DNA of 42,372 nt, taken from the NCBI GenBank assembly GCA_013388435.1, contig JACAFE010000018.1, positions 77,390-119,761 of the forward strand. The letters are read 5' to 3'. Under the pieces are notes generated by a model that did no database searches, was not told the origin of the DNA, and saw nothing but the letters and a program-made list of their open reading frames with translations. This document shows, piece by piece, positions 27,600 to 41,971 of this stretch; within the stretch, counting starts at the first letter, position 1; each line of letters begins with the position of its first letter. The position numbers and the translations under genes are program-made. This DNA is from Nitrospirota bacterium. Its GTDB lineage: Bacteria > Nitrospirota > Thermodesulfovibrionia > Thermodesulfovibrionales > SM23-35.

Positions 27600-28121
27600 A
27601 TGAAAATTAAGGTTCTTTCAGGTTATTTCTTAATAATCATCATTTCTTTTATGCTTCATTATATAAAACCGGGCAGAATGTATTATGGCATTCTTCCTGT
27701 TTTAATGATCGCATATCCTGTTTTTTCAGGTAATAAAATAAGGCTGAATTTCTCCATAAGGGATATTTTGATTGGTTTTTCTATTTCATTTATTATACTT
27801 CTTCCATATCATCTTGTATTTGGTGGAGACATTGAGAGAATTACATTTGCTGAAGTTCTTTTTCAATTTATAGGAGTTGCTTTTCCCGAAGAAGTTTTTT
27901 TCAGGGGATATATTCAGGAATCTTTTAAAAGAAATTTTAAAGCAGTTTTAATAACAAGTCTGCTATTTTCCTTATCACATCTCCCGGAAGCAATGTTTTC
28001 AAATGACTGGATTTCTTTACTTAGCTTTTTTCCGTCTTTGATCATGGGTTGGCTTTATTTAAAAACCGGTAATATTCTGCCGGGTGTGATTTTTCATTTT
28101 TTTGCGAATGTAATATATTAA
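27600..28121 (+). CDS. CPBP-family glutamic intramembrane protease
   Basis: A 173-aa inner-membrane protein with about five helices. All CPBP (CAAX/Abi) motif residues are present: Glu97-Glu98 in FPEEVFFRGY, His127 in FSLSHLPE, and His166 with Asn170 in HFFAN. Family members cleave within or beside transmembrane segments. The MrtX/MrtJ branch processes C-terminal sorting tails (MYXO-CTERM, JDVT-CTERM). The gene is convergent with the subtilase at 28154-30427, with only 32 bp between stops, and that subtilase ends in just such a tail, so it is the likely substrate. Small size also fits the sorting-protease branch. Assignment to that branch is inference; CPBP membership is secure. Confidence 0.86.
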   Translation: MKIKVLSGYFLIIIISFMLHYIKPGRMYYGILPVLMIAYPVFSGNKIRLNFSIRDILIGFSISFIILLPYHLVFGGDIERITFAEVLFQFIGVAFPEEVFFRGYIQESFKRNFKAVLITSLLFSLSHLPEAMFSNDWISLLSFFPSLIMGWLYLKTGNILPGVIFHFFANVIY

Positions 28122-28157
28122 CCAAAATAATGAAGATGCCTGCATCATTTGGGTTAA
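28118..28157. terminator. Shared hairpin covering both convergent stop codons
   Basis: TTAACC (28118-28123) pairs with GGTTAA (28152-28157), AAAT with ATTT and GATGC with GCATC, with a bulge. It includes the TAA of the CPBP gene and the TAA of the subtilase. The right arm GCATCATTTGGGTTAA recurs near 20795 and, inverted, near 40876. Confidence 0.5.
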
Positions 28158-30427
28158 TCGGCTTTTCTTCCTATAATTAACAATATAATTAAAGGAATTA
28201 ATAACACTATTGTATCAGCTAAAGCTGTGGGAGTATTCTGTATGCCACCTATTGAGCAACCACCGCCTCCTCCGCCACCTGAAGATTTTTTTGTAATCGC
28301 ACTTGCTTCATTGGAATAAGAAGATTCACCTATTTCATTATATGCTTTTACACGATAATAATACCTGGTATTTTGTGTAAGTCCTGTATCAGAGTAAGTA
28401 GAGATGTTAGCGCTTGTTGTGCCAATAAGCTCATAATTTCCTGCATCTCCGGTCTTTCTTTCTATCATAAATCCTGTTTCATTATCTGAATTGTCATTCC
28501 ATGATAGATTAATTTGCGTTTTTGAGATTGCAACTGCAGAAAGTCCTGTAGGAGCAGATGGAATTGTGGCGCCCAGTGCTGAAGCAGCATTAAGTCTTCC
28601 GCCGGTAATGGTCTTGCCTGTTAATGATGATATTTTATCTACACCATTCAATATTCTATCCTTGACCTGAGCATAGGTTAATGAAGGATTTGCCGAAAGA
28701 ATTAGACCTGCTGCACCAGAGACAAAAGGAGCTGCCATTGATGTACCATTCCATCCACTCGATTCATATGAATAATTGCTTACAGAAATGGAGTATTTTT
28801 GAAGAACTACATCATCAATATTTATACCTTCGTAGTTTACTAAAGAGTCTGATTTTAGTCCGAATCCAATATAAAATTTGTCGAGTAAATCCGCCGCAGA
28901 TGTTATTTCGTCGGTGTAGTCAGAAACATATGAAGGATTATTTCCGTCTCTGTAATCAGCCCAGTCCCAGAATATACCATCCTGTGAATAATTCATGTAA
29001 AAAAAGTCATTTGTGGTGGTGTCTATATGACCTTTCCATTTGAAATAAAGTCTGTAAAGGTAGTTTTTTTGTGAATTAAATGATGTTTTATATCCTGCCC
29101 ATGAATTGGTATTGCTCAGATAATCTGTTCCGGGGCTATCTTCAAGACTATTAGTGCCATTTATACCAGTACCTTCGGTGATTGCCCATGTGCTCTGGGT
29201 TCCGCCCTTTTCCCATCCGAGCAAAGGCAAAGAACCTGAAGCACTGTCAAAGTTTTCGGAATATAAGATAACCGGGCTGCTATAAGAGAAATGGGGCACT
29301 GTGCTATAAATTGACACACCGGGTGCAGCGAGATGAACATTGGTACTACCGTAATTTGAAAAATAGGCTAATTGATCATTCTGGTCTGTTGCAGCAACAG
29401 AAATAATATTGGGAAGATTATAACTTGCTGGATAAAATGGAGATATATTATTGTTATTGCTTTCATTTCCTGCTGCGGCTATAAAAAGAACATTATGCTG
29501 TTTTGCATAGTTAATGGCTGAATAGACTGTTGCAGAGTAATCATAACCACCCCAGCTCGCATTAATTATTCTTGCGCCATTATCAACAGCGTATTCTATT
29601 GCTTCAGCAGCTCTTGCCACATCACCTGTGCCTGTTACTCCAAGAAATCTGAGCACCATAATTTTTGCAGACCACATCACACCCGAGATGCCTGTATTAT
29701 TATTTCCTTTTGCAGCTATAATTCCTGCCACATGTGTTCCATGCTGATTATAATCTGATGGGTATCCATCATTGTCTATATAATCCCATCCATAAAAATC
29801 ATCTACATATCCATTGTTGTCATCATCAACTCCTGTGCTGCCATTCACTTCAACTGTATTTACCCATATATTGTCTCTTAAATCAGGATGGTCATAGGAA
29901 ACTCCGGAATCGAGAACTGCTATAATGACACTATTAGAACCTTTTGTAACTTCCCATGCTTTTTGTGCGCTTATATCAGCCCCGGGCGTTCCGCCAAACT
30001 GTCCCGTGTTATTTAATCCCCATTGCTGATTATATCCGGGATCATCGGGGATAGCCGCGGTGCGGACTATATAATTGGGTTCAGCGAATTCAACCTCAGG
30101 ATAAGATTTATAATATTCAACAGCATCCTCAACAGAAGTTTCTTCAGGCACTCTGATATGCTGAATTTTTAAGTGTTTAATATCTCCTATCTTCTTTGCA
30201 TTTATATTTTTATGCAACATGTTTATTTTTATTAAAGATGTTCCGTCTTTGAACTTAATGAGTATTTCACCGGGCATGTAATTTTTTAAATTAGTGGGTT
30301 TGAATAATGAATTATTGTTTGAGTTTATATCAAGTTTATTATTAAATGCTATTTCGGTATGATTGATATCCGAACCACATGAAAAAAAACTTAAAAACAT
30401 GATTGCAACCAGTATTATCCTTAGCAT
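28154..30427 (-). CDS. Subtilisin-like serine protease (S8) with lipobox, propeptide, inserted beta domain, FN3 and sorting tail
   Basis: A 757-aa exported protease; ATG 30427 has AGGAGG 5 nt upstream. Order: signal with lipobox FFSC (Cys17); fervidolysin-type propeptide about 52-122 (GEILIKFKDGTS to EVEFAEPNYIVR); S8 domain with Asp173 (AVLDSG), His229 (HGTHVAG), oxyanion Asn321 and Ser563 (NGTSMAAPFVSG). About 160 residues (388-548) interrupt the catalytic domain before Ser563; the sequence (ENFDSASGSLPLLGWEKGG, SLEDSPGTDYLS) resembles MAM/jelly-roll sandwiches. Then FN3 (623-712), a Gly7 run, Cys724, a membrane helix (736-752) and GRKAD. It lies 10 bp after gspN, so it is probably the last gene of the T2SS operon and its dedicated substrate. 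The tail suggests processing by the neighbouring CPBP protease. Confidence 0.94.
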   Translation of the reverse strand: MLRIILVAIMFLSFFSCGSDINHTEIAFNNKLDINSNNNSLFKPTNLKNYMPGEILIKFKDGTSLIKINMLHKNINAKKIGDIKHLKIQHIRVPEETSVEDAVEYYKSYPEVEFAEPNYIVRTAAIPDDPGYNQQWGLNNTGQFGGTPGADISAQKAWEVTKGSNSVIIAVLDSGVSYDHPDLRDNIWVNTVEVNGSTGVDDDNNGYVDDFYGWDYIDNDGYPSDYNQHGTHVAGIIAAKGNNNTGISGVMWSAKIMVLRFLGVTGTGDVARAAEAIEYAVDNGARIINASWGGYDYSATVYSAINYAKQHNVLFIAAAGNESNNNNISPFYPASYNLPNIISVAATDQNDQLAYFSNYGSTNVHLAAPGVSIYSTVPHFSYSSPVILYSENFDSASGSLPLLGWEKGGTQSTWAITEGTGINGTNSLEDSPGTDYLSNTNSWAGYKTSFNSQKNYLYRLYFKWKGHIDTTTNDFFYMNYSQDGIFWDWADYRDGNNPSYVSDYTDEITSAADLLDKFYIGFGLKSDSLVNYEGINIDDVVLQKYSISVSNYSYESSGWNGTSMAAPFVSGAAGLILSANPSLTYAQVKDRILNGVDKISSLTGKTITGGRLNAASALGATIPSAPTGLSAVAISKTQINLSWNDNSDNETGFMIERKTGDAGNYELIGTTSANISTYSDTGLTQNTRYYYRVKAYNEIGESSYSNEASAITKKSSGGGGGGGCSIGGIQNTPTALADTIVLLIPLIILLIIGRKAD

Positions 30428-30437
30428 AAATCCTCCT

Positions 30438-31238
30438 TTAAATTGGGAACTCACCTTTTAATGGAATTAAATAATAACCCGGGGATACCCTGTATTGTTC
30501 GAGTCCTGCAAACAAAAGATGATTGTCAGTGAAATTTTTATCAGGCATTATTTCAAGAGTTGCATCCGCGATATAATCTTTTACGCAACCTCTTAATCTT
30601 GCATATACATTTCTCCCGTCAAATGAAACAGATTCTATATTAATTAAATTGTTATTGATATTAATTGCTCCGGACATTGAATGGAAAAAACTTGCTGGCG
30701 TTTTAATTCCTGATATCTCAATATCTTCAAGTGATAGATTTCTGGAAATAAATTCAATATGTGATTCGCTGTTATTAAAAATAAGTGAACCCGATATATT
30801 TCCCGAGCCTTTTATTTTTCTTTTTCCTAAAAAAGACAGAGCTGTTAAATCCAGATCTTTAAACTCGAGTTTACCGTTCGTGTTTTTTTTCGATAAACTT
30901 ATAAATCCTTTGATTTTTCCTTTTTTAGAATCTGCCTCAACTGACATATCAAGATTCTTTACTAGAAGTTTAAAAGGATTTATTCTTGAATTTATGTTAT
31001 TCAGAGTCATTATTTCTTCCTGCCCGGACTTTATAATAACTTCGTCAATGAATAAATCATAAAGAAAACCCTTCTTGAATCCTCTGATTTCAATTTCTAA
31101 AAAATGATTTTCAGCAGCATCTTTCATAATATTCATTATCGTTGATTCTGAGAATACGAACCATAGTGCCCAAAAAATAAATGGGAGAATAAATATAAAA
31201 GCGAAGCATATTCTGAAATTTGCTTTTGTATTTGTCAC
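30438..31238 (-). CDS. gspN: Type II secretion system protein N
   Basis: A 266-aa protein with one N-terminal membrane helix (ICFAFIFILPFIFWALWFVF) and a long beta-repeat periplasmic region (DLFIDEVIIKSGQEEIMTLN, GKIKGFISL, GSGNISGSLIF), as in the GspN/AsmA-like beta-barrel-groove proteins. It starts at GTG 31238, overlapping the gspM stop by 4 nt (GTGA). GspN is present in only part of T2SSs and is not always essential; its role at the outer-membrane side of the machine is unclear. Position after gspM and before the substrate protease supports the call. Confidence 0.8.
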   Translation of the reverse strand: MTNTKANFRICFAFIFILPFIFWALWFVFSESTIMNIMKDAAENHFLEIEIRGFKKGFLYDLFIDEVIIKSGQEEIMTLNNINSRINPFKLLVKNLDMSVEADSKKGKIKGFISLSKKNTNGKLEFKDLDLTALSFLGKRKIKGSGNISGSLIFNNSESHIEFISRNLSLEDIEISGIKTPASFFHSMSGAININNNLINIESVSFDGRNVYARLRGCVKDYIADATLEIMPDKNFTDNHLLFAGLEQYRVSPGYYLIPLKGEFPI

Positions 31239-31741
31239 TTTTGCCTTATGTATGAAATAACCATATTTATATTGAGAAGTTGTGGATTTTCAAAATCTTT
31301 TTTTATAGTAATCTTTTTAATTGATAGAAGAGAAGGAGAATTTTCGATTCTGTATAATATATTCAGCAATTCATTCATAGATGCTTTTTCCACAGAAATT
31401 TCGGTTGCTTCTTCAATACTGTCAATTGTCTGATTGCTCCCAGAGTTTTTAATACTTTTCAACTTATTTTTTAATCCCATTGATGAAAATATCTCGTCGA
31501 GAATTTGAATTATTCCAGCAGCTTTCCCTGTTCTTTTCTTTGATTCATAAAAACTTACTCTCTGGTTAAGATATGATATTTTATTTTTTATTCCTGTGAT
31601 TTCTTTCTGCTGCGCCTGCAGATTCATTAGTTCCTTCCTGTCATTATTTAGTTGTTTAAGCCCTGATATTATTAATATTGACAAAACTATAATAAAAACT
31701 GCGGGATAGAGAATCTTTTTATTGTTTAATATCTTACTCAA
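31235..31741 (-). CDS. gspM: Type II secretion system protein M
   Basis: A 168-aa inner-membrane protein. I choose the TTG at 31741, not a farther upstream ATG, because GGAG lies 7 nt before it and it overlaps the gspL stop by only 8 nt, while the upstream extension is Cys/Arg-rich and unlike the family. A transmembrane helix (YPAVFIIVLSILIISGL) is followed by a coiled-coil (LNNDRKELMNLQAQQKEITG) and a ferredoxin-like domain ending INMVISYIRQK. GspM pairs with GspL in the inner-membrane platform. Its end overlaps gspN by 4 nt. Confidence 0.84.
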   Translation of the reverse strand: MSKILNNKKILYPAVFIIVLSILIISGLKQLNNDRKELMNLQAQQKEITGIKNKISYLNQRVSFYESKKRTGKAAGIIQILDEIFSSMGLKNKLKSIKNSGSNQTIDSIEEATEISVEKASMNELLNILYRIENSPSLLSIKKITIKKDFENPQLLNINMVISYIRQK

Positions 31742-32792
31742 GTTTTTTCTCCTGTGCTGTAATCGTAAAAAGCATCTTATTCTGCAATGAAGATTTAGAG
31801 TCTGAAATAACAACGTTTTCAAAATTGCGAGACAAACTGTCTTTTATTTGTTGAATATCATTAAGATTATCTGCCTCTCCTTTGAGCGTAAGGTTTCCTT
31901 TCTCAATTATTAACTCATTGAAAATTGCGGACCTGCGTTCCAATTGCGAAAGGAGTCTGAGAGTATTCAGGCAGGATATGCCGGATAAATAGCTGTTTCT
32001 GTCAATAAGCTCTTTAAAATGGGACTGTAGTTTATAATATTCATTAACCACATTTTTTTCTTGAGGGTAAAGTTCGAGATATTGTTTTCTTATTTCTTTT
32101 TTTATATTCGAGATTTCACTTCTTGTGGTATATAAATGAAAAATAATATCAGCGGATATTGTGAAAAAAATAAGAAGCAAAAGGATTGATGCAATTTTCA
32201 ATCCCTTTTTCGTCTCCTCTAAATGCTGTTTGAAAACAAATTCTCCTTTGCTTAGATTTATTGAAGGGTTGATAATTTCCTCAATTGCGTATTTAATTCT
32301 TTGGGCATCATCAATATTGACAGGATTTATAAGTTTTTCAGTCGAAAATTCATTTAATACACTCCTTAGTTCAATGGAAGTTATCAAGGATGGGGTTAAT
32401 GATGAAGCTTTTAAATCAGAAAGAGTCCTGCCTAAAATAAGTTTTTCGATATAAACAGCAAGGACTTTATATTTGTTATCGGTTTTATTGAGAACTACAG
32501 CATCCATTATAACTTTATCAGAACCGCCGAGTATCATGCCTTCAAGTTCAAATGGTAAAACCTCGAGTATTCTTTCTTTATCTCTAAAGGGCAGTTCAAG
32601 CACCCTGAAATTAAGCATATTGATGGGAAGACTTATATTCACATCAATATTACCGGAGTTTTTAATTCCAAAATCATAATTTCCTGCTTCATTAACAACT
32701 TTTGTTTCTACATGTTCAAATCTGCCATGTTCAATCGAAAATAAATAGCATCTTGTTTCGTCATTCTTAATATCAATGAAAAGAGACTTCAT
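31734..32792 (-). CDS. gspL: Type II secretion system protein L
   Basis: A 352-aa bitopic protein: an actin-like cytoplasmic domain (about 1-200, with LPFRDKERILEVLPFELEGM, the usual GspL/PilM stretch), a transmembrane helix about 203-222 (IASILLLLIFFTISADIIF), then a coiled-coil and a ferredoxin-like periplasmic domain. The cytoplasmic part should bind the ATPase GspE and the periplasmic part GspM. ATG 32792 overlaps the gspK stop by 1 nt (TAATG). Confidence 0.87.
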   Translation of the reverse strand: MKSLFIDIKNDETRCYLFSIEHGRFEHVETKVVNEAGNYDFGIKNSGNIDVNISLPINMLNFRVLELPFRDKERILEVLPFELEGMILGGSDKVIMDAVVLNKTDNKYKVLAVYIEKLILGRTLSDLKASSLTPSLITSIELRSVLNEFSTEKLINPVNIDDAQRIKYAIEEIINPSINLSKGEFVFKQHLEETKKGLKIASILLLLIFFTISADIIFHLYTTRSEISNIKKEIRKQYLELYPQEKNVVNEYYKLQSHFKELIDRNSYLSGISCLNTLRLLSQLERRSAIFNELIIEKGNLTLKGEADNLNDIQQIKDSLSRNFENVVISDSKSSLQNKMLFTITAQEKKLE

Positions 32793-33691
32793 TAATATTC
32801 TCTCCAGTATTCTATTCTGCCTTTATCTTTATTCAATACGATATCTATTATCCTTTTTATATTTCCATTTGATGCAATGGCGTGTATTGAGAATATTGAT
32901 GCTTTATCTGTTATTTGATTTGCAGAAAAAGAGGTTCCAGCTTCTAAATTAAAGTCATGATAGGTTTCAAAGGACTTTGCTTTTCTCCTCTGTATTAAGA
33001 TATTTGCTTTATCTTTTGTTACAGGGAATATTCCTTTACCTTGATCGAAAAGGCTCATTAAAACAAACTCTCCTGCAGTATTGATATTGATAATAAGATT
33101 ATCACGGGTTCCATAAACAGTAACATATGGTGATAATTTATCATAATCACTTCTGTTTATTCCATTAATCAACAGCAGTTCATCCACACTACTTAGAATG
33201 CTATTTTTCGTCATGTTTTCTGAACCTGTTACACACGGAGTAGTATCAATATCTATCCAGTCCACAACTCTGTCCGCAATTGTTTTGTCTAAAGACAATA
33301 ATTCGAGAAGTTTCTGGAACGATTTATAAGCTGTTACATTAATAGTTCTTCCATCAGGATATACAAGACTATTAAGATTAATTTTTCCTGTCTCGTCTTC
33401 TATTTTTATTATTATTTCTCCGTTAAAATTTTCAGAAGGTTCCTTAAAAGACATATCTACTGTATCAGTGAATTTATCATTCAAATTTTTTATATATCTT
33501 ACTGCCAGATTTATGCCTGATTTCGCAAGGAGTGAAAGTCTCTGGCTGTCACGCCAGTTATAAAGATCATTGGTTCCAGTATAAACTCTATACGAAAACT
33601 CAACTACCATTGCTGTTAATAAAGCAAGCACAAGCAGGACAATTACAAGAGCAATGCCTTTCTGGTTTTTGAACTTAAATTGATTTGCCAT
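32792..33691 (-). CDS. gspK: Type II secretion minor pseudopilin K
   Basis: A 299-aa minor pseudopilin. The short leader NQKG is followed by IALVIVLLVLALLTAMVVEF without Glu at position +5, the characteristic GspK exception. Downstream features are DLYNWRDSQRLSLLAKSGIN, DETGKINLNSL and VVDWIDIDTTP with the family's alpha-helical insert. GspK caps the pseudopilus with GspI and GspJ. It overlaps gspJ by 17 nt and gspL by 1 nt. Confidence 0.93.
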   Translation of the reverse strand: MANQFKFKNQKGIALVIVLLVLALLTAMVVEFSYRVYTGTNDLYNWRDSQRLSLLAKSGINLAVRYIKNLNDKFTDTVDMSFKEPSENFNGEIIIKIEDETGKINLNSLVYPDGRTINVTAYKSFQKLLELLSLDKTIADRVVDWIDIDTTPCVTGSENMTKNSILSSVDELLLINGINRSDYDKLSPYVTVYGTRDNLIININTAGEFVLMSLFDQGKGIFPVTKDKANILIQRRKAKSFETYHDFNLEAGTSFSANQITDKASIFSIHAIASNGNIKRIIDIVLNKDKGRIEYWREY

Positions 33692-34283
33692 ACATTGGTT
33701 TTGCGATATCTGTAAGAATTATTTCCCTGTCTTTTATCTTAAATACCATGCTTATTCTTATTTGTTCAGGTGACTTATTATTGATTTCCGTATCCCATGT
33801 CTTTACCCATTTATTCTCAAATTTAGCTTCGAGAGAGAATCCTTCGATCCCTTCAATTAGATCCGCAGTGTTTTCAGGTTCATCCTGTGAGCCTGATTCA
33901 ACATTTTTGTAAAGCGTCAATCTACCGTCTTTTTCTACAACATAATATGAAAGTCTTGAAAGGCCGGGCTTTAATGATGAAAATGTTGTAAAAATAATTT
34001 GAGAAGCAGGCTTCCCATAATAATCCTTATCTTTTATTTTTATTTGTGTATCTTTTATTCTCTCGTCAAAGACTGCTGATTCAAGCTCACACCTTATGAT
34101 TTCAATAGTTTTTCTCGCTTCCTGTAGTCTTGTTATAGATTCATCCGAATTTTCTGTTGCCCTCTGAAGCAAAAAAAATGTGCCGTAAGTTACCACAAGA
34201 ATTATTGATAGTATAGCAATAGCAACAAGAACTTCAATTAAAGTAAAGCCATTAATTGATTTTTTATTTAAGAATATATTCAT
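33675..34283 (-). CDS. gspJ: Type II secretion minor pseudopilin J
   Basis: A 202-aa pseudopilin with leader MNIFLNKKSING followed by FTLIEVLVAIAILSIILVV; the prepilin peptidase site is Gly-Phe and Glu+5 is present. The globular part has LQEARKTIEIIRCELESAV and several beta strands consistent with GspJ, which forms the pseudopilus tip with GspI and GspK. The start lies inside the last 20 nt of gspI. Confidence 0.88.
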   Translation of the reverse strand: MNIFLNKKSINGFTLIEVLVAIAILSIILVVTYGTFFLLQRATENSDESITRLQEARKTIEIIRCELESAVFDERIKDTQIKIKDKDYYGKPASQIIFTTFSSLKPGLSRLSYYVVEKDGRLTLYKNVESGSQDEPENTADLIEGIEGFSLEAKFENKWVKTWDTEINNKSPEQIRISMVFKIKDREIILTDIAKPMYGKSI

Positions 34284-34620
34284 TGAGTTTAATTTCTTCC
34301 CTTCCAGATCTGATTGTCACAATAAATTCGGAAATTCCGGGATATGGAGAATCCTGTACAATCGTCTCAAAAGAGTATTGTTCATATGGTTTTTCGAAGA
34401 CCCCTTTTTTATTTTCCGGATTGCTTTCCATTTCGGATAAGATTTTCTTCGCAAGCATGGTGCCAATTGTGACTGTCTCCTGTTTCTCCACTATACCGAG
34501 ATGGTAATTTACAGTGTAAATCAGGGTGACAAGCAAACCACTGATTATTGCGAGAGATATTAAGACTTCAAGAAGCGTAAAACCCTTTTCCTGACAACAA
34601 TAATTTCTAAGCCATAACAT
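34264..34620 (-). CDS. gspI: Type II secretion minor pseudopilin I
   Basis: A 118-aa pseudopilin with cleavage site EKG-FTLLEVLISLAIISG and Glu+5. After the N-terminal helix come VEKQETVTIGTMLAKKIL and YEQYSFETIVQDSPYPG, matching the small GspI fold. It nucleates the tip complex with GspJ and GspK. One nucleotide separates it from gspH; it overlaps gspJ by 20 nt. Confidence 0.87.
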   Translation of the reverse strand: MLWLRNYCCQEKGFTLLEVLISLAIISGLLVTLIYTVNYHLGIVEKQETVTIGTMLAKKILSEMESNPENKKGVFEKPYEQYSFETIVQDSPYPGISEFIVTIRSGREEIKLNEYILK

Positions 34621-34621
34621 T

Positions 34622-35065
34622 TTAATTATAAATTTTTATTTTTCCATTAAGATGATTAAGTGAAACTATAAAATTTTTATCGTCTTTATTCAAATGTACA
34701 ATAATATTCTGCTGAATTCCTGTTGGAGGAAAGAATAATGTTAGTTCCCCTTTGTTAACCAGTCCGTTTGATTGGGTCTCAACTCCTGAAATATTTTCGA
34801 ATTTCTTTTTTCTTTCTCCTTCTTTTTCATTCCATATGAGAAGGTGTTCATCAAAGTTAAAGACAATCGAAAAAGTCTCTTTTGAAGAGGAAGCACTTTC
34901 ATTTAGATACTTTAATATAGAACCAATTTCACGAGCTTCGGATTTTAATTTATTTTCGCCGAAAATATCAAAAGAAGGAAATATAATTGCAGCCATCAGA
35001 GAGACAATAAACAATACAGTAATAAGCTCAATTAAAGTAACGCCCTTATAATTGTTATTTTCCAT
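34622..35065 (-). CDS. gspH: Type II secretion minor pseudopilin H
   Basis: A 147-aa pseudopilin. The N-terminus YKG-VTLIELITVLFIVSLMAA has the cleavage site and Glu+5, with Val instead of Phe at +1. SEAREIGSILKYLNESASSS and FFPPTGIQQNIIVHL are typical of the GspH/FimT family. It links the tip complex to the GspG fibre. It lies 33 bp after gspG and has no clear ribosome site. Confidence 0.86.
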   Translation of the reverse strand: MENNNYKGVTLIELITVLFIVSLMAAIIFPSFDIFGENKLKSEAREIGSILKYLNESASSSKETFSIVFNFDEHLLIWNEKEGERKKKFENISGVETQSNGLVNKGELTLFFPPTGIQQNIIVHLNKDDKNFIVSLNHLNGKIKIYN

Positions 35066-35098
35066 AAAATAAAAACAAAAAGTTATTATAATGAGTTA

Positions 35099-35560
35099 TC
35101 ACTTCATATCCCAGTTTCTTATATCAGCATCCTTTCCTTCTCCACCTTCTTTTCCATCTGCTCCAAAACTTACTATATCAAAATCTCCATGAAGACCCGG
35201 ACACAAATAAAGATATGGATTGCCCCACGGGTCATCAGGAATGCTTTTTTGTTCAAGATAGCCACCCTGTCTGTATTTTTGAGGTATTCTGCCTGTTGTG
35301 GGTTGTTCAATGAGCGCCTGTAATCCCTGGGATGTTTCAGGGTAAAAACCATTATCAAGTTTATACAATTTAAGAGCTGTCTCAAAGTTTCTTATCTGAA
35401 TCTTTGCATCAGCAATTCTTGCATCATCAGTCCTGCCAATAATCTTTGGAGCAACTATTGCAGCAAGAAGTCCGAGTATGAATACGACTACAATTATTTC
35501 AAGCAATGTAAAACCTTTTTCAGTGTTGATAAGAAAATTACAGAATCCTGTTTTTTTCAT
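35099..35560 (-). CDS. gspG: Type II secretion major pseudopilin G
   Basis: A 153-aa major pseudopilin. Cleavage at EKG-FTLLEIIVVVFILGLLAA, then PKIIGRTDDARIADAKIQI and LKLYKLDNGFYPETSQGLQA. The C-terminal DPWGNPYLYLCPG and FGADGKEGGEGKDADI (calcium-binding loop) are diagnostic of GspG. It polymerises into the pseudopilus that pushes substrates through the secretin. ATG 35560 follows AGGAGG by 8 nt. A 247-bp gap with a small palindrome separates it from gspF, which could allow separate expression of this abundant subunit. Confidence 0.96.
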   Translation of the reverse strand: MKKTGFCNFLINTEKGFTLLEIIVVVFILGLLAAIVAPKIIGRTDDARIADAKIQIRNFETALKLYKLDNGFYPETSQGLQALIEQPTTGRIPQKYRQGGYLEQKSIPDDPWGNPYLYLCPGLHGDFDIVSFGADGKEGGEGKDADIRNWDMK

Positions 35561-35807: not shown

Positions 35808-36983
35808 TTATTTTATTAATTGGTTCATCTGGAAAATCGGCAAAAGAACTGCAAGAACTATTATACCAACTATGATGCCCATGCATAATATCATAAAAGG
35901 TTCAAGCAATGAAAATGCTCTACTTACTTTTCTCGAAAATTCTTCTTCATAAGCATTGGCAGCATTATTTAAAATGCCCGTAAGCTGTCCGCTTCTCTCT
36001 CCAGTAGCTATAAGTTGTAAAAGAACCGGCGGAAATCCTTCGAGAGAAGTTGATATTTTTGCGCCTTCAGAAACTTTTCTCCCACACGTTGTTACTTTCA
36101 ATTCAAGCTCTTTATTCCCTATGGCTTTTGCTGACAATTCAAGAGCTTTTAACATTGGCAAACCGCCTTCGAGTAAAAAGCTTAATGTTCTTGCAAAACG
36201 GCTATAATAAAGGCTTTGGATTATATTGCCGGGGAGTTTTAATATCAACCTGTCAAAATATATTTTATTACTTTGTTTTAGTCTTCTGAAAAGAAAAACC
36301 ATTGATAAAATAAGACCTGCAATAAGCCACCAGAATCTCTGAAATATATCACTTATAAAAATCAGGGCAATTGTTATAAATGGCAAAGCGCTATGTGTAT
36401 CTTTGAATATTTTTGTTATCTTCGGAAGGACAAAAGCAAAAATAAATGAAAGAACTATAAAACCAACACATATCATAAATACAGGATATATCATAGATGT
36501 TCTGACTTTTGCTTTTATGTTTTCACGACCTTCAAGAAAATCAGCGAGTTTTTTTAATACATTATCGAGTGTCCCGCTTGCTTCACCAGCCGCAATCATG
36601 TTTATGTAAAAATCAGGAAAAATGTTTTTGTAATCCTCAAGCGCTCTGGAAAAACTCGAACCACCTTTAATTTTCTCTTTTATATCAATCAATATATTTT
36701 TCCAGATACCCCTGCTTTCCTGTGAAATAGATGAAAGCGCATCTATCAGAGTTACGCCTGAAAAGAGCAGAGTTGATAATTGTCTCGTGATTTGCGGGAG
36801 CAAAGAAAGATCAATCTTTTTGAAAATACTTAATCTTTTTCTGTCGGCAGACTCACTGATACTCTTTGCATAAAGACCTGTTTCTTTAAGACGGATAACA
36901 GCATCTCTGTGACTGTTCGCTTCAATTGTACCTGAAATTTCAGAGCCGTCTGTTTTATAGCCTTTATACTGAAAGATCGGCAT
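35808..36983 (-). CDS. gspF: Type II secretion inner-membrane platform protein F
   Basis: A 391-aa polytopic protein. The N-terminal MPIFQYKGYKTDGSEISGTI is the classic GspF/PilC start. Two T2SSF cytoplasmic domains follow (about 55-190 and 260-385), with membrane helices at about 157-180, 208-226 and 360-382; PVFMICVGFIVLSFIFAFVL and GERSGQLTGILNNAANAYEE are family blocks. It overlaps the gspE stop by 20 nt and couples the ATPase to pseudopilus assembly. Confidence 0.95.
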   Translation of the reverse strand: MPIFQYKGYKTDGSEISGTIEANSHRDAVIRLKETGLYAKSISESADRKRLSIFKKIDLSLLPQITRQLSTLLFSGVTLIDALSSISQESRGIWKNILIDIKEKIKGGSSFSRALEDYKNIFPDFYINMIAAGEASGTLDNVLKKLADFLEGRENIKAKVRTSMIYPVFMICVGFIVLSFIFAFVLPKITKIFKDTHSALPFITIALIFISDIFQRFWWLIAGLILSMVFLFRRLKQSNKIYFDRLILKLPGNIIQSLYYSRFARTLSFLLEGGLPMLKALELSAKAIGNKELELKVTTCGRKVSEGAKISTSLEGFPPVLLQLIATGERSGQLTGILNNAANAYEEEFSRKVSRAFSLLEPFMILCMGIIVGIIVLAVLLPIFQMNQLIK

Positions 36984-38502
36984 AATCTTTCCGGGTGACC
37001 CTTAATACTTCTTCAAGAGTTGTAATGCCTTTAATTGCTTTTTCAAGACCATCGGTCCTTAATGTCTTAATTCCCTTTGACAGAGCATAGTTTTTTATTG
37101 TTTGAGAATCCATCTTTTCATTTATCATGTTGCGAATTTCATTGTCAATGACAAGAACTTCAAATATGCCTGTTCTTCCGATATAGCCTTTTTTGTTACA
37201 TTTATTGCAACCTTTACCTTTTGAAAGAGTAAATTCCTGCGCATGACCATTTATTATATCTTTTAAAAGAATTTTTTCTGTCTCTGAAGGGATATAGGTT
37301 TCCTTACAGTCAGGGCAAATTGTTCTGACAAGTCTCTGCGCAATAACAACCGAAAGAGAAGAAGAAATAAGGAAAGGCTCAATGCCCATATCTATTAGCC
37401 TTATAACAGCAGAAGGAGCATCATTGGTATGTAGAGTGCTCAGAACAAGATGTCCTGTTAATGATGCCTGCATCGCCATCTCAGCAGTTTCAATGTCTCT
37501 GATCTCGCCAACCATAATAATGTCAGGGTCCTGCCTTAGTATAGACCTCAGACCTGCTGCAAAAGTCAGACCTATCCTCGGATTAACCTGAACCTGACCT
37601 ATCCCTTTTAATTGATACTCAACAGGGTCTTCTACTGTAATTATATTTTTTTCTTCTGTGTGAACCCTGTTTAATGCAGCATAAAGAGTAGTGGTCTTTC
37701 CGCTTCCTGTTGGTCCTGTAACAAGAATAATACCGTCAGACCTTTGCAGATAACTTTCAACTTTTCTGCAATCATCGTCGCTGAAGCCAACTTCCCATAG
37801 TCCGAGCAAACCCTGCTTTCTGTCAAGCAATCTTAAAACAGCTCTTTCTCCATAGGAGGTTGGGATTACCGAAACCCTTATATCAATATCTCTTCCTGCA
37901 AGAAGAAGTCTTATCCTGCCATCCTGCGGCAACCTCTGCTCGGCTATGTCCAGATCAGCCATTATTTTTATCCTGCTTATTAAAGCATCCTGAATAATTT
38001 TGGGTGGAGATAATACATTATGAAGAATCCCATCCACTCTGAATCTGACTTCAAGGACTTTTTCATACGGCTCGATATGAATATCACTTGCCCTTTCTTT
38101 GACAGCCTGAAGGAGTATCGCATTCAAAAGCCTTATAATTGGAGCATCTTCTGTTAACTCGAGTAAGTCCTTTGGTGTCTCAAATTCTGTAGCAACAGCA
38201 GTGAGATCTTCTCCTGTAATAGTATCCATGACCTCTTCTGCTGAACCTAATTGTCCGTAAAATCTGTTTATAGCATTTATTATAATCTCATGTTTTGCTT
38301 TTAAAGCTTTTGGTTTTAAGCCAAGTGTGCGTGAGAGTTCAGCCAGGGCAAGCAACCCGGAATCATCATCAACCGCGCATATTAATTCCGAATTCTGAAC
38401 TTTGATAGGAAAAATATTATTACTCTTTACAAATCCAAGCGGAATATTTTTCAATAAGGACAATTCAACATCATCATCTTTTATTACATCAATTGTTTCC
38501 AT
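36964..38502 (-). CDS. gspE: Type II secretion ATPase E
   Basis: A 512-aa cytoplasmic ATPase from the ATG at 38502; an ATG at 38520 or a TTG at 38556 are alternatives, all inside the gspD end. An N-terminal GspE-N domain is followed by LNAILLQAVKERASDIHIEP, Walker A GPTGSGKT (263-270), the Asp box VEDPVEYQ, Walker B region DIIMVGEIRD and the His box SLTGHLVLSTLHTN. A zinc tetracysteine (Cys396, Cys399, Cys432, Cys435) is present. It powers pseudopilus assembly through GspL and GspF. Confidence 0.96.
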   Translation of the reverse strand: METIDVIKDDDVELSLLKNIPLGFVKSNNIFPIKVQNSELICAVDDDSGLLALAELSRTLGLKPKALKAKHEIIINAINRFYGQLGSAEEVMDTITGEDLTAVATEFETPKDLLELTEDAPIIRLLNAILLQAVKERASDIHIEPYEKVLEVRFRVDGILHNVLSPPKIIQDALISRIKIMADLDIAEQRLPQDGRIRLLLAGRDIDIRVSVIPTSYGERAVLRLLDRKQGLLGLWEVGFSDDDCRKVESYLQRSDGIILVTGPTGSGKTTTLYAALNRVHTEEKNIITVEDPVEYQLKGIGQVQVNPRIGLTFAAGLRSILRQDPDIIMVGEIRDIETAEMAMQASLTGHLVLSTLHTNDAPSAVIRLIDMGIEPFLISSSLSVVIAQRLVRTICPDCKETYIPSETEKILLKDIINGHAQEFTLSKGKGCNKCNKKGYIGRTGIFEVLVIDNEIRNMINEKMDSQTIKNYALSKGIKTLRTDGLEKAIKGITTLEEVLRVTRKDYADLSV

Positions 38503-40813
38503 CTTTAATCTTTGATTCATGATGTTGCATTTTAATAATATAATCTGGCTCGGCAAATTGAACTTCCTTATAATTCCCGAATTTCTCCGCTGCTTTTAGC
38601 ACATCCATATTTTCTTTCAGTTTTATCCTATATACACCTGTTGATTTTGACATGCTGATAATCGAGGCTTCTTCTAAAGTGAGTATTTCATTGATCCTTG
38701 CTTCACTTACACCTTCTTTGAACTTGACAAGCAATTCTCCCTGTTTAAATCTTTCCTCTGCTTTTGCGAATTCGGACTTCTTGCTTTCACTCAGCTTTTC
38801 AAGATTTTCTGATTCTTTGACAATATGGGGTGTAAGAAAAATTAAGAGATTGGTCTTCTTTTTTTCCTGTTTTTTATTCTTAAAAATCCAGCCCAATACA
38901 GGTATATCACCAAGTAAGGGTACTTTATTAATATTGACCTCTTCTTTTTCCTCCATAAGTCCGCCTATTACAACTGTCTGGCTGTCTTTAACAACAACCG
39001 AAGTCTTTGTGGAACGTTTTGTTGTGGTCGGACCAACATTAAGAATTATATTTTCTGTATCGCCTTTCAATGAAGATATTTCCTGATAGATTTCCATCTT
39101 AACATAATCACCTTCAGTTATCTGCGGGGTAAGCCTTAAGGTTATACCAACATCTTTCCTCTCTATAGAATTCAGGATTGTGCTTGATGTGGTAATATCG
39201 CGTTCTCTTTTTGATATAAAAGGAACATTTTCTCCAACTACTATCTCAGCTTCTTTATTATCGGATGTTAATATTTGAGGCGTGGAAAGAACATTTACAG
39301 CGCCTTTGAATTCATTCAGGCTGAAAAGCGCTGCGAATCCGGGGATTGTCAGAGTCGTTGTAGTTGTATTTACTGATGAATCTGTTGTTGTAACAGGAAT
39401 ATTAAGAAAATTGCCTATGCCACCCAGTGTCATACCGCTTAGTCCGTTAATTATATTGCTAACAGCGGATGCATCCATTTTCCCGAATCCACTTATAAAT
39501 ACCGGTTCATTATTTTTCTCAGCGGTTATTCTCCATTGAGCTCCGAGTTCTTTTAAATTGTCTATAGATGCCTCTACAATCATTGCCTCAACATAAACCT
39601 GTTTTCTTCTTCTGTCGAGTTGTTTTATTACCTGCATTATATTCTGATAATCAGCAGGCGGAGCAACTATAATCAATGAATTTGTAGCTTTATCAGGTGA
39701 TATTATGATCTTCCCGGATTCAAAAGGTCCTTTAATATTTTGCGGAGCCTGTACTGCCTGGGATACTTTTACCTGTGAAATTCCAGAAATCATTCCTTCG
39801 AGAACTTTTGAAAGCTCGGTTGCATCAGCATATTCAAGGAAATAGACATTGATTTTACTTGTTGCTTCAGGCATTGGTATATCAAGGAGTTTTATCATTC
39901 TCTTTATTTCTTCTTTTTCCTGTTTGCCCGCGATCATTATAATCGCATTCAATCTTGTATCCGCAAAAATATTAGGTCGGGTTTCATCAATTGATACTCC
40001 AGATACTGTTTCACCTCTTAAAGGAGGTCTCACTCCTACAGTTGGAGCCTGAGATTTTGTTACCGTGGAGATGGATTCATTTAACATTTTGACGATTTCT
40101 TCTGCAGATGCATATTTGAGCATGATAAGTTCGGGCTCTTCAATATCCTGTTTATCTATGCTTTCAATTATCTTCATTACTTTTTCGATATTGGCAGAGG
40201 AATCAACAATCAGAAGCATATTTCCCGGTCCGTATGAAGAAATATGCCCGTCTTTAGATATAAGAGGCTGGAGAAAATTCATTGCTTTTGTGCTTGAAAT
40301 AGAATTCAACTGTATAATCCTTGTTATATAAGTATCGTTAACCGCTGCATTTTCGTCTTTTATTAATTCTGTGCTGGATTGTCTCGCCTGTGAAAGGGGA
40401 ACTATTTTATATACTTTACCCATCTGAATAATCGTAAAGCCTTTTAATTCAAGTACAGATGTAAACAAACTGAAAGCGTCCTCAACAGATAACTTTGAAG
40501 GTGCAATAATAGTAACAGTGCCTTTAACCTTATCATCAAAAACAAAATTTTTGCCTGTCACTTCGCTTATGAATTTCACAACTACGGGGATATCAACATC
40601 TACAAAATTAAAGGTAACCTTTTTTTCTTTAGTCTTCTGAGCATCCTTTTCTTTTGTTTTAATATCTTTGATAGCAGATGTTTGACTGTCCATTGAAAAT
40701 GAAGAAGGATGAATTATCAAGGATAAAATTAAGACCGAGGAAAAGATAAAAACTGAAAGATGAACAGAAAAGGTCTTTTTTATAAAAGCTTTTATATATA
40801 AAAAGATACTCAT
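38489..40813 (-). CDS. gspD: Type II secretin GspD with C-terminal subtilase-propeptide-like domain
   Basis: A 774-aa outer-membrane secretin. An N-terminal signal-like segment (about 15-40) precedes N0 (about 65-140, VTFNFVDVDIPVVVKFISEV) and N1-N3 domains (about 160-400). The secretin barrel domain (about 405-668) carries NVLSTPQILTSDNKEAEIVV, VGITLRLTPQI and VPLLGDIPVLGWIFKNK. After a charged linker (about 670-690) comes the oddity: residues 692-761, GELLVKFKEGVS to EVQFAEPDYIIK, a fervidolysin/subtilase propeptide homologue. This domain aligns without gaps to the propeptide of the subtilase in the same operon (about 27 of 70 identical by hand). It stands where other secretins have the pilotin-binding S-domain. 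The frame is intact, overlapping gspE by 14 nt. Confidence 0.96.
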   Translation of the reverse strand: MSIFLYIKAFIKKTFSVHLSVFIFSSVLILSLIIHPSSFSMDSQTSAIKDIKTKEKDAQKTKEKKVTFNFVDVDIPVVVKFISEVTGKNFVFDDKVKGTVTIIAPSKLSVEDAFSLFTSVLELKGFTIIQMGKVYKIVPLSQARQSSTELIKDENAAVNDTYITRIIQLNSISSTKAMNFLQPLISKDGHISSYGPGNMLLIVDSSANIEKVMKIIESIDKQDIEEPELIMLKYASAEEIVKMLNESISTVTKSQAPTVGVRPPLRGETVSGVSIDETRPNIFADTRLNAIIMIAGKQEKEEIKRMIKLLDIPMPEATSKINVYFLEYADATELSKVLEGMISGISQVKVSQAVQAPQNIKGPFESGKIIISPDKATNSLIIVAPPADYQNIMQVIKQLDRRRKQVYVEAMIVEASIDNLKELGAQWRITAEKNNEPVFISGFGKMDASAVSNIINGLSGMTLGGIGNFLNIPVTTTDSSVNTTTTTLTIPGFAALFSLNEFKGAVNVLSTPQILTSDNKEAEIVVGENVPFISKRERDITTSSTILNSIERKDVGITLRLTPQITEGDYVKMEIYQEISSLKGDTENIILNVGPTTTKRSTKTSVVVKDSQTVVIGGLMEEKEEVNINKVPLLGDIPVLGWIFKNKKQEKKKTNLLIFLTPHIVKESENLEKLSESKKSEFAKAEERFKQGELLVKFKEGVSEARINEILTLEEASIISMSKSTGVYRIKLKENMDVLKAAEKFGNYKEVQFAEPDYIIKMQHHESKIKDGNN

Positions 40814-41095: not shown

Positions 41096-41971
41096 CTATT
41101 TAATTTGATAATTCATTGTCATTCTCGAGCCTGCCCTGATTAAATCTATCTCAACCCTGTCAAGTCCTTTAAGAGCTGTAAGCGCCTGCAATGCCACTTC
41201 AGGATTTGATATTTCATATTCATTGATTTTTAAAAGCACATCTCCATCCTGAAGTCCCAGACTTTGATAAATACCTCCTGGTTTTACTTCACTTAGAATA
41301 AACCCTCCTGTTCTTCCGTTTGATGAATTTGGTTTGAGTCTTGCGTCTGTCATTATCTGTGATGGATTTGCTATTATTTGCTGGAGCTTTGTCTGATCAA
41401 CTATATAAGAACTTCTGCCAACCCTTTGAGTAAATCCTGTGACTCCCAATGTTTGAGAAGATTGGGTTGACTTTATTTCTCTAACTTTTACAATGTCCTC
41501 AATCGGCAATTCTTTTACACCTTCGCTACTTTGTATTAAGACCTTATCCTTTTTAACACTATGGAGCTTTCCTGCTCCAAAAACTGAATCTCCTATCTTG
41601 AATATTTCCTGTATTCCTGAATTGTTTCTGAATATTGCATAACTTAGCTCTTTAGGACCCGATACAGTTCCAATTAATGTAAAATTCATCTGCTGTACAG
41701 CAGGCATTGACGAAGCTGTTAATTGTTTCAACTCACCTGTTTGAATTCCAAAAATATTATTTTTCATTAATGGAGCATATTCAATAAATTGAGTGGTAAT
41801 TTGTGAGAAAGACTGCTGAGCTGCATTAGAAGTGTCGTTTTTCAAACTTTTTTTATTCTGAAATTTATATGTAATGATGTCTCTGACAAAAGTCAGGATT
41901 AAAACTAAAAGAACTATTCCGAGAATAAAATTTATACGATTTAAAGGTTTTTTGTTTATAAAACTATGCAT
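41096..41971 (-). CDS. gspC: Type II secretion protein C with PDZ domain
   Basis: A 291-aa bitopic inner-membrane protein, first gene of the T2SS operon. It has a cytoplasmic start, a membrane helix (about 13-31, INFILGIVLLVLILTFVRDI) and the HR domain at about 65-165 (PLMKNNIFGI, FTLIGTVSGPKELSYAIFRN, IFKIGDSVFGAGKLHSV), which contacts N0 of GspD. A C-terminal PDZ domain at about 205-290 (GGFILSEVKPGGIYQSLGLQ, DGDVLLKINEYEI) is thought to take part in substrate choice. ATG 41971 has no ribosome site. A TATAAT-like -10 at 41983-41988 would give a nearly leaderless mRNA, with no good -35. The gap to gspD (282 bp) is filled by a repeat. Confidence 0.93.
   Translation of the reverse strand: MHSFINKKPLNRINFILGIVLLVLILTFVRDIITYKFQNKKSLKNDTSNAAQQSFSQITTQFIEYAPLMKNNIFGIQTGELKQLTASSMPAVQQMNFTLIGTVSGPKELSYAIFRNNSGIQEIFKIGDSVFGAGKLHSVKKDKVLIQSSEGVKELPIEDIVKVREIKSTQSSQTLGVTGFTQRVGRSSYIVDQTKLQQIIANPSQIMTDARLKPNSSNGRTGGFILSEVKPGGIYQSLGLQDGDVLLKINEYEISNPEVALQALTALKGLDRVEIDLIRAGSRMTMNYQIK

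Follow-up and report, generated by a model that had tools for sequence, protein, structure and literature searches.

A subtilase propeptide domain at the C-terminus of a type II secretion system secretin in Nitrospirota

Secretins, the outer-membrane channels of type II secretion systems (T2SS), are oligomers, with 15 subunits in the solved GspD structures, and to our knowledge there is no general answer to how T2SS recognise folded substrates. The propeptide of a subtilisin-like protease normally folds and inhibits its own protease. Propeptide-like folds that act in trans have been described in SUB1-ProM (PMC6993865), in POIA1 and YIB2 (PMC10580911), and in ORF2, the external chaperone of the Aeromonas protease ASP (PMC5638518). 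The lipase foldase Lif of Burkholderia is likewise a separate steric chaperone of an exported enzyme and has been compared with subtilisin propeptides (PMC3352829). In text searches of a literature that largely left out subscription journals and preprints, no secretin with a propeptide domain was found described, and this absence is not proof of novelty.

The window analysed here is a stretch of 42,372 nucleotides from a Nitrospirota bacterium, and it encodes a GspD of 774 amino acids (38489..40813, reverse strand). This protein scores 558 bits against TIGR02517, with a cut-off of 351, and is a genuine T2SS secretin; Pfam finds PF21305 (N0), three copies of PF03958 (Secretin_N) and PF00263 (Secretin) in it. 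Like the canonical secretins PulD, EpsD and ExeD, it combines N0, N and secretin domains with a first S-domain helix and is encoded in a gspC-N operon, but where those proteins carry the distal S-domain, including the helix alpha-12 that binds the pilotin in EpsD, it carries a propeptide domain. That domain shares the fold, the family PF22148, an E-x-[DN] capping motif and the tail length of the fervidolysin and subtilisin BPN' propeptides, and differs from them in being fixed to an outer-membrane channel with no protease attached. SUB1-ProM, POIA1 and YIB2 resemble it in having a propeptide fold in trans with a C-terminal tail, and SUB1-ProM also in its Glu and Asn capping residues and in a gene that lies beside its protease gene; these three are soluble and biochemically tested, whereas the GspD domain is part of a secretin and is known here from sequence and prediction. 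Aeromonas ORF2 (3WQB) is a separate propeptide-like fold whose C-terminus sits at the subtilase active site of a Gram-negative secreted protease, and it is among the structural matches of the GspD domain; unlike that domain it is soluble, and its protease is described as propeptide-deficient. Lif is neither an S8 propeptide nor part of a secretion machine.

All genes of the operon lie on the reverse strand. C, D, G and N are supported by profile matches, with weaker matches for H, I, J and M, and E, F, K and L are assigned by gene order and by matches in related operons. gspC (41096..41971) scores 145.8 bits against NF041515 (cut-off 150) and also matches TIGR01713. gspE (36964..38556), a T2SS ATPase by sequence, overlaps the end of gspD and is followed by gspF (35808..36983), and both are matched in related operons. 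The block gspG-H-I-J-K-L-M-N occupies 30438..35560, where GspG scores 177.6 bits against TIGR01710 and GspN 79 bits against TIGR04411, and where H, I, J and M fall below their cut-offs. The last gene encodes an S8 subtilase (28154..30454; PF00082, 198 bits) with an fn3 domain, conserved Asp and His catalytic regions in the alignment and a GTSMAAP serine motif in the translation. It has an N-terminal propeptide (NPro) of its own (residues 49-127; 30074..30310; PF22148, 60.3 bits, E=2.4e-16) and ends in a sorting-signal-like Gly run, Cys, transmembrane segment and basic tail (28157..28291), and GGGC-TM-RRR endings recur in related S8 proteins. Convergent with it on the forward strand is a gene for a CPBP-family intramembrane protease related to MrtS/myxosortase (27600..28121), whose best NCBIfam match, NF040589, reaches 79.4 bits against a cut-off of 130 and whose Mrt_core score is 69.6 against 100, both below the Synerg-CTERM/MrtS cut-offs. 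A homologue adjoins the terminal S8 gene in G003, G006, G011 and G014, and at L210, L211 and L212, as in the window, an Mrt/myxosortase-like protease gene lies next to S8 genes, or between them, and the S8 products end in Gly-Gly-Cys, a transmembrane segment and Arg/Lys.

The tip of GspD is a true subtilase propeptide domain of the fervidolysin NPro type. The original prediction had aligned GspD residues 692-761 (38531-38740, reverse strand) with the operon S8 without gaps and counted about 27 identities in 70 positions by hand; BLASTP returned exactly this segment, with 27/70 identities, no gaps and E=3e-14 as a single comparison. Evidence independent of that comparison comes from Pfam, in which PF22148 (Fervidolysin_NPro-like) matches GspD residues 678-757 (38543..38782, reverse strand) over profile positions 4-81 of 81, with 51.9 bits (gathering cut-off 21) and E=1e-13, in agreement with the predicted propeptide family. 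The same Pfam scan found no peptidase S8 catalytic domain joined to it. With the domain as query, its own genome yielded only three places: the GspD and the S8 of the window, and one further S8 encoded on a different contig. The predicted structure points the same way: an AlphaFold2 model built on an alignment of 57 GspD C-termini has the order strand-helix-strand-strand-helix-strand, the beta-alpha-beta-beta-alpha-beta fold expected of the Fervidolysin_NPro-like family, with pLDDT 90-96 over the core. Foldseek against the PDB placed the propeptides of subtilisins BPN' and E first (1SPB_P and 1SCJ_B; probability 1.00, target TM 0.72-0.73), with modest E-values (best 4e-3); among its other matches are fervidolysin (1R6V), the ORF2 chaperone of Aeromonas and PC1/3 prodomains bound to furin. 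A sequence profile of the 57 domains ranked 1R6V first (E=0.02), followed by 1SPB_P and 1SCJ_B, with weak E-values of 0.02-0.14, while a single-sequence PDB search with the domain gave nothing useful. Chance similarity is ruled out by Pfam, BLAST and fold, and the existence of the fused secretin itself is firm.

It had also been proposed that the domain takes the place of the pilotin-binding S-domain, and this is right for its distal part. GspD residues 653-690 (38744..38857, reverse strand), which comprise the end of the secretin domain and the first S-domain helix, are kept; profile positions 1-47 match cryo-EM GspD chains 5WQ7, 6I1Y and others. Likeness to these structures stops after the first S helix, and the remainder is NPro, so the window GspD has no alpha-12 with a pilotin motif. 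In pilotin-dependent secretins this pilotin helix lies in the distal S-domain (PMC6532946). By analogy with other secretins, the domain is expected in the periplasm on the outside of the barrel and not in the channel lumen; in that position, docking or inhibition is more readily pictured than gating.

The domain ends in E757-P-D759-Y, followed by I-I-K-M-Q765 (38519..38545, reverse strand). The fifth residue of this tail, Q765, corresponds to the last (P1) residue of the BPN' propeptide. E757 and D759 align with Glu69 and Asp71 of that propeptide, which cap helix ends on the catalytic domain and have Glu146 and Asn148 as equivalents in the stand-alone inhibitor SUB1-ProM (PMC6993865). In an alignment of 77 GspDs, made up of the 75 fused ones of the order together with G016 and G017, the Glu69 equivalent, E in 71, is conserved more strongly than any other polar residue of the domain; the Asp71 equivalent is N or D in 62. 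The tail after the Tyr is mostly x-hydrophobic-K/R-hydrophobic-Q/K, with a hydrophobic residue (Ala included) at P4 in 61/77 and K/R at P3 in 53/77. The chain stops exactly at the P1-aligned residue in 31 of the 77 and no more than five residues from the domain end in 61; GspD of the window's genus runs nine residues beyond the P1-aligned position, in the stretch that overlaps the gspE ORF. A free C-terminus is not universal, since five named GspDs (L072, L080, L092, L094 and L098) have 179-234 residues after the domain. These extensions look SPOR-like by eye at their ends, and Pfam run on one of them gave no match.

Within the order, 141 genomes of at least 85% completeness were surveyed, and this GspD is present in 80. 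The domain was read in 75 of these, is clearly missing from GspD in three (G031, G115 and G139), whose T2SS loci otherwise look intact, and was counted neither as fused nor as unfused in G128 and G138, which have contig-end breaks or partial matches. G103, which appeared unfused by BLAST coverage, is fused on reading. An apparent split between GspD and NPro at L117 is caused by N bases, and the GspD end at L113 is cut by a contig edge. Outside the order but within the class, 14 genomes were compared: 12 are fused (families f15, f16 and f19), and both f14 genomes are unfused. For GspDs from other classes of the phylum the match stops at about position 680-700 of the query, with the one exception of G154, in which it runs to 750 with a stop inside and whose genome has no PF22148 match. 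Named relatives are mostly Nitrospirota metagenome-assembled genomes labelled Thermodesulfovibrionales/-ia, Nitrospiraceae or Nitrospirae.

The simplest reading of this distribution is one ancient fusion, now found in 14 families, in which GspD would have gained the propeptide as its C-terminus before the Thermodesulfovibrionia-type class of Nitrospirota radiated or at an early stage of that radiation. A tree built from 132 NPro domains has poor resolution, with few well-supported forks (8 changes for GspD versus 44 when shuffled), so the case for a single origin is made by position and distribution and not by the tree. A recent copy from the neighbouring S8 gene is rejected, as the domain is class-wide and the window copy is nearer to other GspD domains than to the operon S8: identity is 86% within its genus and 47-53% to its nearest relatives, with lower values for distant GspDs, against 39% to the operon S8. 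The domain is divergent in families f3 and f4. Its dN/dS is 0.06-0.53 over nine genome pairs, near 0.5 for G017/G005 and G036/G024 and 0.06-0.21 for the others, and it is under purifying selection; the secretin domain usually has a lower ratio.

In 16 genomes, which belong to four families (f1, f2, f4 and f9), genes for S8 proteases with NPro are found within a T2SS operon or next to one. They follow gspN and/or precede gspC in eight (G000, G001, G003, G006, G009, G011, G014 and G015), precede gspC in G116, lie between gspF and gspG in G034, G045, G092 and G095, accompany gspG-H-I-J in G022 and G097, and stand beside gspF/E in G027. Chance linkage would be expected in a few per cent of genomes, in a calculation with assumed rates of 2% and 5%. 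Across the order, 80 genomes have this GspD, and PF00082 was found in 64 of them, or in 65 when G005 is included, where a contig end cuts the start of an S8-NPro gene (L217); it was found in 19 of the 61 that lack this GspD (65/80 versus 19/61, p=2e-9, uncorrected for phylogeny). The same search found no S8 in 15 fused genomes of at least 85% completeness, including G008, G026 and G054, which are rated 100% complete and of which G008 and G026 have an intact capping motif. A more permissive search of these three and six others found an S8 only in G017, and in some cases a gap in the draft genome may explain the missing S8, as in G005. All three genomes of the order with unfused GspD have S8, so S8 tracks this T2SS rather than the domain. 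The expected co-occurrence of fused secretins with S8 genes was thus borne out for the secretion system, in its strong statistical tie and its operon linkage, and not for the fusion itself, given the 15 fused genomes without S8 and the three unfused ones with it. Loss of the capping motif showed no association with absence of S8 (broken in 13/60 with S8 versus 6/15 without, p=0.19).

The propeptide domain and the shared operon suggest, short of proof, that the pore binds its protease cargo or keeps it in check. We put at roughly 45% the probability that the GspD domain acts in trans to dock or guard S8 cargo of the T2SS. Because the secretin is oligomeric, the pore would carry a ring of propeptide domains on its periplasmic outside, near the outer membrane. 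Each would bind in trans the catalytic domain of a T2SS-exported subtilase in the manner of a cleaved propeptide: its sheet would pack on two helices at the enzyme surface, which the conserved Glu and Asn/Asp would cap, and the tail would lie product-like in the active site. Prematurely processed S8 could then be held and inhibited beside the pore until export, and the ring would serve as guard and docking site and possibly as a folding aid. The analysis shows the identity and fold of the domain, its conservation and capping residues, the frequent chain end at or near P1 and the operon linkage; binding, inhibition, docking and topology in this organism are inferred, as are the holding and release of the substrate that were originally proposed. 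Nearly all S8 proteins read near T2SS genes have a propeptide of their own, so it is not obvious why another should be needed in trans. The more specific proposal, that at the outer membrane the channel specifically captures and inhibits the subtilases that are its cargo, as a built-in cargo receptor and safety catch, is correspondingly more tentative. In this bacterial class the secretin bears a domain that is known for binding a single family of enzymes, whose genes are often found in the same operon, so that recognition or protection at the pore becomes a question of binding between two proteins. If the ring of propeptide mimics is real, substrate recognition by a T2SS would, for this family of enzymes, have a definite physical explanation.

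The main rival is that the propeptide fold, taken up in place of the distal S-domain, serves structure or assembly, whether in pilotin-like targeting, as a subunit clamp or in binding of peptidoglycan or an accessory protein, with S8 merely a common cargo. This is a possible reading, though we would not bet on it. It would account for the position of the domain, at the site of pilotin helix alpha-12 after the kept first S helix (PMC6532946), for its retention in the 15 fused genomes without detected S8, and for purifying selection that extends to pairs including S8-negative genomes; the long extensions in five GspDs and an S8 presence that follows the T2SS also fit it. It leaves unexplained why, among the polar residues, a protease-capping Glu is conserved best, why so many chains end at or near P1, and why the GspDs of G031, G115 and G139 do without the domain in otherwise intact-looking loci.

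Free versions of NPro beside S8 genes elsewhere are also unexplained by a structural substitute. Loci titled Nitrospira, one titled Nitrosospira and one from a gammaproteobacterium encode short NPro proteins directly upstream of S8 genes that have their own NPro; the domain is at or near the C-terminus of these short proteins, most of which have a lipobox-like STSC or VMGC. Such genes were seen at L123, L125, L127, L128, L130, L131, L133, L134 and L140 (Nitrospira-type) and at L132. In G031 and G156, whose GspDs have no such domain, a free NPro with a signal-like leader likewise stands directly upstream of S8; a short NPro ORF in G115 is a frameshifted S8. The recurrence of NPro in trans beside S8 with different anchors is the strongest circumstantial argument that the domain binds proteases, as in the dock or guard for S8 cargo preferred here.

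A broader protective role, in which the propeptide ring shields secretin and envelope against subtilases whatever their source, such as other cells or the extracellular medium, instead of dealing with the cell's own cargo, seems improbable. It would accommodate the domain in S8-negative genomes, and propeptide-like inhibitors are known (PMC6993865, PMC10580911), but the expected position is periplasmic and not external, and propeptides can be highly selective for their cognate enzyme (PMC10580911). That the domain is a functionless passenger of a chance fusion would fit its absence from the S8-positive G031, G115 and G139 and from family f14 and its divergence in f3 and f4, but is made very unlikely by its conservation in 14 families, with the dN/dS values above and a conserved tail and motif.

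Several further arrangements were seen around S8 and NPro. In three f4 genomes an S8-NPro frame runs without a stop into GspG (L143:13166-15958 and L152:13031-15823, both G045; L159:3079-5862, G022; L213:1212-3947, G097), giving a single ORF of 912-931 amino acids that combines protease and major pseudopilin, which are separate ORFs in the relatives G034 and G095. At L089:11373-13262 and L109:11489-13345 the slot between gspF and gspG holds another large protein with a similar membrane-anchor-like C-terminus, which suggests that this is a slot for cargo. Two S8-NPro proteins (L217:1505-1948 and L227:7186-9465) have a lipobox-like leader (LLTSC, LLGC) ahead of the propeptide, which may therefore itself carry a lipid anchor. 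An S8 from a Chromatiales bin (L121:3701-6088) has a propeptide domain at its N-terminus and another at its extreme C-terminus. NPro-like domains also occur at the very C-terminal end of transmembrane anti-sigma-factor-like proteins (L218:2477-3109, G047, with VEFAERAY; L219:1603-2214, G108, with VVFAELAY), and a 414-amino-acid protein from a Parcubacteria bin (L136:3103-4344) has NPro at its extreme C-terminus.
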